Source: an uncultured bacterium
Lineage (GTDB): Bacteria; Cyanobacteriota; Vampirovibrionia; Gastranaerophilales; Gastranaerophilaceae
Direction of reading: 5' to 3'
Length of the DNA: 36,356 bases
NCBI GenBank assembly: GCA_948433295.1
Contig: CAOJDT010000011.1
Span: 1-36,356 of the forward strand
Below, piece after piece: positions 20,826-28,053 of the stretch. The notes beneath the pieces were generated by a model, which ran no database searches, was not told where the DNA came from, and worked only from the letters and a program-made list of their open reading frames with translations. Position 1 is the first letter of the stretch, and the number at the start of each line of letters is the position of its first letter. The position numbers and the translations under genes were made by a program.

Positions 20826-20949
20826 ATGTATAAATATCCCCTCAAAGCTTTCCCAACACTATTGTATTTTATTCGTAAAAAAAAAACAAATAATTTTTGA
20901 ATGTTGTAACACTACTTAATAAAAATTTTATGATACAATGGAATCAAAT

Positions 20950-21345
20950 AAAGCAGTCGGATAATCGCGCATTACATAATTGTGTGAAAGCAGCGGCGGC
21001 TTGCGAGAGTAAGCCAAATCCGCACATACAAGACAGGATGTGAGGAAAGTCCGTGCATTCAAGGACAGATTGCCGGAGAAACTCCGGACGGTGTGAACCG
21101 GTGGATAGGACCACAGAAAACATACAGCCGATGGACGAAAGTCACAGGCAATGGTGCAACGGCGAGGTAAGAGCTCACCGACGATATTGAGAAATATCGG
21201 TCAGGCAACCCCCAATCGAATGCAAGATTGAATTGAAGGTTATAAAGGCTGTCCGCCTACTTCTAACAAATCGCTAGAGATTGGAAGCAATTCCAATACC
21301 AGACAGATGATTATCTAAAACAGAACACGGCTTACGGGCTGCTTT
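20950..21345 (+). ncRNA. rnpB: RNase P RNA (M1, type A)
   Basis: This is the catalytic RNA of RNase P, which matures tRNA 5' ends. Diagnostic conserved words are present: GAGGAAAGTCC (about 21040-21050), GGTGTGAACCGG, ACAGAAAACATACAGCCGATGG, GGTAAGAGCTCACCG, and near the 3' end ACAGAACACGGCTTACGG. The ends pair (AAAGCAG at 20950-20956 with CTGCTTT at 21339-21345), which sets the boundaries to within a few bases. A T-run follows and likely serves as terminator. A TACAAT box at 20934-20939 is the probable -10. It is divergent from the recA-linked gene. Confidence 0.95.
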
Positions 21346-21355
21346 ATTTTTTATA

Positions 21356-21481
21356 TTGAAAGTTTGTGAAAAATAGTTTATAATAATACCTGAGCGCGAG
21401 CGAGCAAGAAGCCGCTTAACCCTGACACTAAATGCAGGGAAGCACGCGTAAAGAAAAAAGAAAAGAATGGAGGTTGAAACA
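21356..21481 (+). promoter_or_regulatory. Consensus promoter and 90-nt structured leader of prepilin gene 1
   Basis: TTGAAA (21356-21361), a 17-nt spacer and TATAAT (21379-21384) give a start near 21391. The leader that follows is the only GC-rich stretch here and has GC-rich words (GAGCGCGAGCGAGC, CACGCG) and a CCCTG/CAGGG hairpin (about 21420-21440). It then has an A-rich run and GGAGG about 8 nt before ATG 21482. It matches no riboswitch I know. Confidence 0.65.
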
Positions 21482-22226
21482 ATGACAGCATCTTTAAAAC
21501 GGGGGGGGGGGCAAATCCGCTTATAGCCTAGCTTTCACCCTAGCGGAAGTTTTAATTACTTTAGGAGTTATAGGAATTGTGGCGGCAATGACATTGCCTG
21601 CGCTTATTCAAAATCATCGTCGCGGAGTTGCTGAGACCGCGCTTAAAAAGTTTTACACTAATATGAATCAGGCGATTAATTTATCCGTTGTGGATAACGG
21701 CGACAAAAAATCCTGGACAATGGCTAAGGATAATACTTTAAATGAAGCCGAACTTTTTTATAATAGATATTTTAAAAAATATTTAAAAACTTTGAAAGCT
21801 GAGCCGTCTGATGTTCAAGTTAATAAAAATGGTACTATTGTGAAGGCTTTTACTATTTTCTTTGCGGATGGTTCTGCAGATGCAATGTATTATCATGCTA
21901 AAGATCATTTTTATTGTATAAATGCTAAAGATTTAAAGAATTTTGAGCAAAAGAACGGAACAACTTGTTTTAAATTCGGTTTTTATACCAGTCCTGCCGA
22001 TTTTAATTTTGATACTACCACTTATTCTGCAAGAAATTTTTTAAATAAAGGTTTAGAACCTTATGTTAATAACGACATAAGAGACGGAGAAGGAAACAGA
22101 GTGTCAGATGATGACGGAAATTCAATTAGGACAACGGAAAAAGATCTTTACGCTCAAAAGTGCTACGCTAAGATAATTCAACTTAACGGATGGCGTATTC
22201 CTAAAGATTATCCGTTGAAGTTTTAA
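21482..22226 (+). CDS. Prepilin-like protein, frame-shifted by a poly-G tract (phase OFF)
   Basis: A consensus promoter and GGAGG site mark ATG 21482. The frame reads MTASLKR, then G11 (21501-21511), and as written stops after 14 codons. With 10 (or 13) G it continues as GGGKSAYSLA then FTLAEVLITLGVIGIVAAMTLPALI and a ~220-residue pseudopilin body with three or four Cys and a QLNGWRIPKDYP end, 247 residues in all. FTLAE is the prepilin peptidase motif with the conserved Glu5; Ala rather than Gly precedes Phe1. The apparent start at 21579 lies inside the membrane helix and cannot be real. The protein would join a type IV pilus or type II secretion pseudopilus. Slipped-strand phase variation is inferred; an assembly miscount is the alternative. 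Confidence 0.8.
21501..21511 (+). repeat. Poly-G tract (11 G) in the start of prepilin gene 1
   Basis: An uninterrupted run of 11 G in an otherwise AT-rich genome, 6 codons after the ATG. Only one of three tract lengths (10, 13 and so on) keeps the prepilin frame; 11 and 12 both lead to early stops. Confidence 0.9.
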
Positions 22227-27206: not shown

Positions 27207-28053
27207 TTATTTCGGAAGATTTTTAAAATAATCTTTCTCTGTCAAAGCTCTGTATGTACACGCAGCACCGTTCCATTGATGAGAACTTGACGCTGAACAA
27301 TACTCATTCATGCTCGTAAATTTTGTACCCGGAGCACCCATCGGTAATAATTTCCCTTTATCGGTGACTGCAAACGTAAAAATATCATGTCCCCAGGCGT
27401 TTGGCAATTTATTCAAACCGTTTACATCCACACTTATCATAATACCATATTCTTTCAGATCACTGTTCTGTACCATAATAAACATAGAATCAGTAAGCAT
27501 TATCTGCCCTTCGTCAAAAAGTGAGTTCTCAAGATAACGGCTTTTGCTATAAGTTTTATAACGCTTTGATAACCTGTAATCGTCAGCAGACGGATCAGAT
27601 TTGTCTAATACTTCACACGCGGAATGTCCACAATCGCCAAAACCTGAAAAATATTTTTTAAAAGTCAAAATAAATGTTTTATCGGGAAAATTATCGTAAT
27701 TAATTGTTAGTCCCGTATCTTCACCCATTCTCAAAATCGCCTGCGACAAGACAGAATATGATTTTTTTAATTGAGTATTCAATTCTTTGTGTTTAATATT
27801 ATTAATCAATGTCGGCAAAGTCATTGCGGCAACAACGCCGATAATGCCAAGGGTGATTAAGACCTCGGCTAAGGTGAAACCGTATGTTCGGGTCAATCCC
27901 AAAAAAGCATTTTTTGTCAAAAACGATTCGAAATGTTTCGTGTGCTTTGTAATTTTCGTGCTAAGTGGCTTTGTAAAGGTCTTTCCGGTGTGGAAAGTAG
28001 CTAAGCTACCCCCCCCCCCCTGTCGGGAATCCTTTTGTAGTCTGTGTTTTCAT
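27207..28053 (-). CDS. Prepilin-like protein 2, frame-shifted by a poly-G tract (phase OFF)
   Basis: ATG 28053 has a strong AAAGGAGA site. The frame reads MKTQTTKGFPT, then G12 (28020-28009), and stops at TAG as written. With 11 (or 14) G it runs on for 281 residues: a Gly-Ser start, a ~58-residue basic leader ending LTRTYG, then FTLAEVLITLGIIGVVAAMTLPTLI, a prepilin peptidase site (cleavage after Gly58, Glu at +5), and a pseudopilin body with several Cys. The leader is far longer than usual (5-25). The TTG at 27920 that opens the downstream frame has no ribosome binding site. A 13-bp palindrome (27997-28009) directly follows the tract. It lies between the SIMPL gene and mfd on the same strand. 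Confidence 0.78.
28009..28020 (-). repeat. Poly-G tract (12 G) in the start of prepilin gene 2
   Basis: Twelve consecutive C on the + strand are read as G on the coding strand, 11 codons after the ATG. Only 11, 14 and so on keep the frame; 12 gives TAG and 13 gives a stop two codons later. Confidence 0.9.

Follow-up and report, generated by a model that had tools for sequence, protein, structure and literature searches.

Poly-G leaders at a shared frame offset precede prepilin-like genes in a Gastranaerophilaceae genome

Two prepilin-like genes with poly-G leaders

The window, the whole stretch of 36,356 nucleotides that was analysed, is contig 11 of a source genome of 1.96 Mb with 36% GC. 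On the plus strand, a Shine-Dalgarno sequence, read as GGAGG (21469 to 21473), precedes an ATG at 21482. This ATG opens a leader ORF of 14 codons in the zero frame, MTASLKRGGGQIRL (21482 to 21526), which is closed by TAG at 21524 to 21526. By direct count, 11 G residues lie at 21501 to 21511 of the same strand. The prepilin-like frame, KSAYSLAFTLAEVLITLG... (21512 to 22226, plus strand), lies at +1 from the leader ATG, and no start codon of this frame occurs ahead of the prepilin motif. Read from 21513, it gives KSAYSLAFTLAEVLITLGVIGIVAAMTLPALIQ... and stops at 22226; FTLAEVLITLGVIGIVAAMTLPALIQ is carried by this frame, one base off the leader ORF. The original prediction had described the Shine-Dalgarno sequence, the ATG at 21482 and the closure after 14 codons exactly, and recomputation of the G11 tract and of the one-base displacement of the prepilin frame gave the same result.

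The sequence FTLAEVLITLG, a class III signal (short leader, xF[TS]LAE, hydrophobic helix), is present in both prepilins of the window. In gene 1, Ala replaces Gly before the F, and neither the N_methyl nor the TIGR02532 model reported the protein; the post-tract part of the protein matches PF20318 (DUF6613) across its residues 31-236. No ATG, GTG or TTG occurs in the prepilin frame between tract 1 and the motif, and an alternative start for this prepilin was ruled out on that ground. The full-length prepilin can thus be made only if the frame changes at the tract or close to it. A one-base change in the length of G11 joins or breaks the frame.

Upstream of gene 1, the promoter-like sequence TTGAAA-17-TATAAT (21356 to 21384, plus strand) lies directly 3' of the RNase P RNA (20949-21350). 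It had been called a consensus promoter and does match at 11 of 12 positions, but it is a consensus match only; the consensus scan returned 7 promoter-like sites in the region versus 3.3 expected. Downstream, between prepilin 1 and a convergent peptidyl-prolyl isomerase-like gene, the segment 22316-22440 contains two terminator-like hairpins, one with the loop CCTCC, and a C7 run.

The window has just one further prepilin motif, on the minus strand at 27878, with the same leader design. Leader ORF 2, MKTQTTKGFPTGGGG (28006 to 28053, ATG at 28053), comprises 15 codons in the zero frame and stops immediately after a directly counted tract of 12 G (28009 to 28020). The prepilin-like frame of gene 2 (27207 to 28007, minus strand), with FTLAEVLITLGIIGVV at 27878, is at +1 relative to leader 2 and contains an N_methyl domain; N_methyl and TIGR02532 both scored above the cut-off. 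The arrangement had been presented as a feature of a single gene. This did not hold, as the second prepilin of the window carries G12 at the same offset and the tracts occur throughout the genome.

Poly-G leaders in the source genome and its relatives

We counted G/C runs in the 1.564 Mb of the 1.96 Mb genome that was read in detail, with contigs C69-C131 outside it. Runs of 4, 5, 6, 7 and 8 nt were found 1786, 227, 18, 2 and 2 times, and those of 9, 10, 11, 12 and 13 nt were found 10, 8, 34, 13 and 2 times. The run-length distribution is thus bimodal, with a steep fall to 8 nt and a renewed rise from 9 nt. There were 67 runs of 9-13 nt versus 0.04 expected for at least 9 nt by geometric extrapolation over the same 1.564 Mb. 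The whole genome has approximately 101 G-tracts of at least 9 nt, for which the chance expectation is below 1.

Nearly all tracts lie 19-40 nt 3' of an ATG or GTG with a Shine-Dalgarno sequence, mostly ahead of prepilins. The leader types are few and related: MKTIDMTAFA-, -IIASKLKK-, MKTQTMKGFPT- and a fourth type with a GTG start. Tracts accompany 46 of the 92 prepilin motifs that have 60 or more residues behind them, and 18 of the 46 tractless motifs were too near the end of the fetched stretch for a tract to be included. A poly-G leader heads about half to two thirds of the genome's genes for pilus-like surface proteins. Between tract and motif, a single reading frame, that of the prepilin, stays open over stretches that can exceed 100 codons, indicating that translation comes from across the tract. 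Dispersed repeats that are translated in frame (GLTRNRV-, HPELVSGS-, HHPDTKMQGGTSKGRGKRKIA-, NSIENGGCMKK-) add to the length of some fused leaders; such leaders, at L012, L025, L040, L064 and other loci, extend for up to more than 130 codons from tract to motif. At L017:9136 and L145:1497, the same tract leader precedes ORFs that lack a prepilin motif, and the module thus extends beyond prepilins.

Four contigs end in runs of 28-53 G (L025/L026 at the end of C8, L067 at the start of C35, L072 at the end of C40 and L098 at the end of C66), and further contigs end in or at tracts. These long terminal runs are probably an artefact at tracts of the Illumina "G's end" effect, which is known for the G-tracts of Bifidobacterium breve (PMC9187656). 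Contig ends are enriched in tract-bearing prepilins. A prepilin peptidase domain (PF01478) was detected over the cut-off at C35. Both MutS and MutL are intact in the source genome, which ruled out the loss of mismatch repair as the cause of the tracts. A scan of 1.56 Mb, about 80% of the genome, detected no tRNA-Gly(CCC).

At least one tract is present in 126 of 146 genomes of the family, with a range from none to about 130 per genome. The pattern of Shine-Dalgarno sequence, ATG and tract gave hundreds of matches in 11 genomes of the same genus versus 4 in a reversed control, and it was present in 9 of 13 genera tested. Two architectures were found. At 108 loci, the prepilin frame is joined to the leader and lacks a separate start (fused type). 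At 32 loci, the leader is separate, and the prepilin has its own Shine-Dalgarno sequence and ATG about 150-190 nt past it; 31 of these loci belong to five related species (G010, G151, G102, G150 and G048), and one (L049) to the source genome. A terminator-like hairpin stands between leader and prepilin at 14 of the 32. When prepilin bodies were more than 70% alike between genomes (8 pairs), the similarity of their leaders was no higher than background. The similarity of leaders does not follow that of the bodies, which suggests that leaders have been exchanged or homogenised between loci.

Two genera of the family showed other states. G036 and G066 (genus g36) have no G tract of at least 9 nt, no MutL over the cut-off and MutS below the cut-off. 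The tract-rich genomes have both MutS and MutL, a contrast that concerns two genomes of one genus. G077 and G123 (genus g41) have many G9-G11 tracts followed by A/T, often not 3' of a start codon and in some cases intergenic; this is a different use of G-tracts within the same family.

Frame offset and tract length

We determined the offset between leader and prepilin frame at callable loci, where the start was clear and the prepilin frame open. Among the 44 callable loci of the source genome, 38 were at +1, 4 in frame and 2 at +2. The +1 offset was also found at 65 of 75 loci in the 11 relatives of the same genus. When the leaders of the genus were clustered at 75% identity, 69 of the 82 resulting types were at +1, 6 in frame and 7 at +2 (+1 versus +2, binomial p ~6e-14, with the clusters taken as independent, which is true only in part). 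The OFF state in the window is no accident of one gene.

The +1 offset prevails in all three classes of in-frame length, namely 1 mod 3 (n = 11), 2 mod 3 (n = 9/12) and 0 mod 3 (n = 10). Within one subfamily of leaders, the distance from the start to the end of the tract is constant at 45 nt for n = 9, 10, 11 or 12. The +1 frame is thus kept at tract lengths from 9 to 12, and it is the frame, not the length, that is conserved. In the separate-leader loci, the total from start to tract end is likewise held, at 40 nt. A stop follows within 12 nt past the tract in the start-codon frame at 36 of 54 loci of the source genome and 69 of 90 loci of the genus; the corresponding numbers for the third frame are 12 of 54 and 31 of 90. 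A prfB-like +1 frameshift at the post-tract stop was set aside, as the preceding codon is neither conserved nor slippery. In the genus of G022, the resting state is n = 10 with an offset of +2, that is, one G short.

In leaders with a start-to-tract distance of 29 nt (77 loci, genus-wide), codon 6 is nearly always ATA or ATG and never ATT or ATC, and codon 6 with the next base usually forms a stop in the prepilin frame. The preference for ATA/ATG pointed to a -10 promoter element inside the leader, which was set aside as no -35 element accompanies it.

Tract lengths were compared between paralogous loci, not between cells or strains of one species. Four loci of the source genome share the identical 29-nt leader ATGAAAACCATTGATATGACTGCATTTGC and have 11, 10, 12 and 11 G. 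L038 and L061, which are identical in the leader and the next 16 nt, differ by one G. In G003, which belongs to a different genus, 40 leaders with a constant start-tract distance comprised 3 with 9 G, 10 with 10 G, 22 with 11 G, 4 with 12 G and 1 with 13 G, and the lengths differed in 21 of 25 pairs with identical leaders. Little variation in tract length was found in G010, G151 and G122. Copies with identical leaders are unequal in tract length, so the tracts do slip, and slippage at the DNA level is well supported by these comparisons.

Possible functions of the tract and comparison with known systems

We lean towards a default-OFF contingency gate on the prepilin repertoire, operated by slipped-strand phase variation. 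A shared leader module, consisting of a Shine-Dalgarno sequence, ATG, about 10-12 codons, C, 9-12 G and then a near stop in the start-codon frame, would gate a large family of prepilin-like genes. The resting tract would be the in-frame length plus one base, so that the ribosome would halt just past the tract and produce no prepilin. Replication slippage with the loss of one G, or the gain of two, would fuse the leader to the prepilin frame and turn the cell lineage ON. The leader residues encoded by the tract would precede the FTLAE cleavage motif, so the mature pilin would be the same with in-frame tracts of 7, 10 or 13 G. What the sequence shows directly is the leader design and its recurrence, the one shared offset, the stop that closes the leader, and tract lengths that differ between otherwise identical copies. 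According to the gate, tract length would also change within strains, ON cells would make pilin from which the leader is cleaved, and selection would hold OFF+1 as the default. As G11 is inherently slip-prone and the copies are unequal in length, a population should keep producing ON variants. Four loci of the source genome are already in frame, which was counted in favour of the gate. Counted against it were the tracts of G010 and G151, almost all of them G11, though most prepilins in these genomes have their own start.

Slipped-strand phase variation had been put forward for gene 1 from the outset, and this part of the original prediction is partly supported by the anatomy of a contingency tract and by the variation in length between copies. 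Random switching among ON, +1 and +2 fails as an explanation, since the +1 offset is shared whatever the tract length. We simulated slippage at Campylobacter rates (PMC8224891, Table 2). The simulated tracts were mostly 7-10 G, with a mode of 9 G under neutrality and mostly 7-8 G under selection against ON, and no common offset arose under neutrality or under a constant cost or benefit of ON. Plain random phase variation at these rates was therefore rejected, as neither the simulated lengths nor the offsets match those observed. With MutS and MutL intact, slippage may be slower than in Campylobacter. The uniform +1 calls for one of two conditions: a slippage bias different from the one simulated, or an advantage of the +1 state as such. 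The second leads to a function in recoding or as a leader peptide, and both of these are serious rivals of the gate.

It is a tentative possibility that the G run is mainly a recoding or RNA-pairing element of the shared leader, selected at OFF+1, which sets a low or regulated output of dozens of prepilins per genome through a single programmed change of frame. If the recoding were programmed, the DNA would stay at OFF+1, and RNA polymerase slippage or a +1 ribosomal frameshift would give a low, steady level of prepilin. This is consistent with the conservation of the offset rather than the length (totals of 40 or 45 nt from start to tract end while n = 9-12), with the close stop in the start-codon frame at 36 of 54 loci here and 69 of 90 in the genus, and with other genera being locked the opposite way (n = 10, offset +2). 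Every tract is also at least 9 nt long, a minimum comparable to the RNA-DNA hybrid of about 9 nt. However, near-identical copies do vary in tract length, some loci are in frame, and the fused type has no common slippery codon or conserved stimulatory fold; we consider programmed recoding unlikely. A reading error would require a true tract that is in frame and length calls that overshoot it by one base. G-tracts are difficult to read, in B. breve the lengths given in the annotation were wrong or mixed, and the four contigs ending in 28-53 G resemble the "G's end" effect (PMC9187656). Such an error is highly improbable, because tracts of every length from 9 to 12 G show the same +1 offset in genomes of several different assemblies, other genera show the opposite offset, and the post-tract stop is conserved in the called frame.

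The separate-leader loci point to a leader-peptide attenuator, in which translation of a short ORF with GGG codons would decide the folding of the downstream RNA, with the G run as a pairing partner and the fused loci as derived forms. The 32 separate leader ORFs, the prepilins with their own start 150-190 nt on, the 14 terminator-like hairpins and the 40-nt total that is kept at these loci too all agree with it. The predicted pairing partners of the G run in 24 separate leaders are UUUCC and CCUCCG, with 99% of cells paired and an energy of -19.9 versus -2.7 (sd 1.8) in column shuffles; these sequences are close relatives from two genomes and contain almost no compensatory changes. The attenuator layout of leader ORF, terminator and gene with its own start is partly present at the 32 loci but absent at both window genes, which, like most loci of the source genome, have no second start or terminator from tract to motif. 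No conserved fold was found in the fused loci, with a consensus folding energy of zero for the source genome and for G146/G122. An attenuator is less likely than programmed recoding. Small perfect hairpins with a stem of 4-5 bp occur within 16 nt past the tract at 17 of 55 loci of the source genome versus less than 3% in shuffles (CAACTGAGTTG, CGACTGAGTCG and CAGACTGAGTCTG), and their arms vary in a compensatory manner. The same resting frame everywhere allows a clean test of DNA switching, as in the default-OFF gate, against recoding of RNA.

Gastranaerophilales are widespread gut bacteria on the non-photosynthetic side of the Cyanobacteria. A search of mainly open-access literature for Gastranaerophilales or Melainabacteria together with phase variation of pili found no report, in line with the statement in the original prediction that no description of phase-variable prepilins in this lineage was known. 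If the gate is real, it is among the largest single-family contingency repertoires known to us; an entire set of surface proteins seems to be kept OFF by default until one G is lost.

The known bacterial slippage sites are mostly A/T runs, from which the G runs here differ. Described cases of programmed transcriptional slippage and ribosomal frameshifting share with the present G-tract system a conserved out-of-frame homopolymer and a close zero-frame stop (PMC1088944, PMC5009743). A G-repeat in an mRNA leader can also act as a pairing target, as that of the tlpB leader does for the sRNA RepG in Helicobacter pylori, where expression is graded by repeat length (PMC8295292). Poly-G contingency loci of Campylobacter jejuni and Neisseria resemble the prepilin loci in having G tracts of 8-13 in surface genes and frame switching by slippage. 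C. jejuni NCTC11168 has 29 poly-G/C tracts of at least 7 nt (PMC4965091), whereas the genome studied here has about 100 of at least 9 nt, mostly in one gene family, at one position and at one offset, in the presence of MutS and MutL.

The closest likeness is to B. breve, also a gut commensal with pilin genes split by a G-tract whose annotated length is one base over the in-frame length (PMC9187656). The pilus loci bbr_0113 and bbr_1889 are annotated with G11 and G10 and are in frame at G10 and G9; their ORFs are fused by -1 replication slippage, and the in-frame forms were enriched in the mouse gut (PMC9187656). This experimentally demonstrated fusion provides a tested parallel for the proposed default-OFF gate on prepilins. 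B. breve differs in having Gram-positive sortase pili at two loci, in contrast to the class III signal prepilins, dozens of loci and uniform offset found here. The proposed poly-G prepilin gate is ordinary in principle and unusual in extent, with a frame lock that plain switching does not account for. Elements of this kind have been described in Campylobacter, Neisseria and Bifidobacterium; what is new is the scale, the concentration in a single gene family and the uniform offset.
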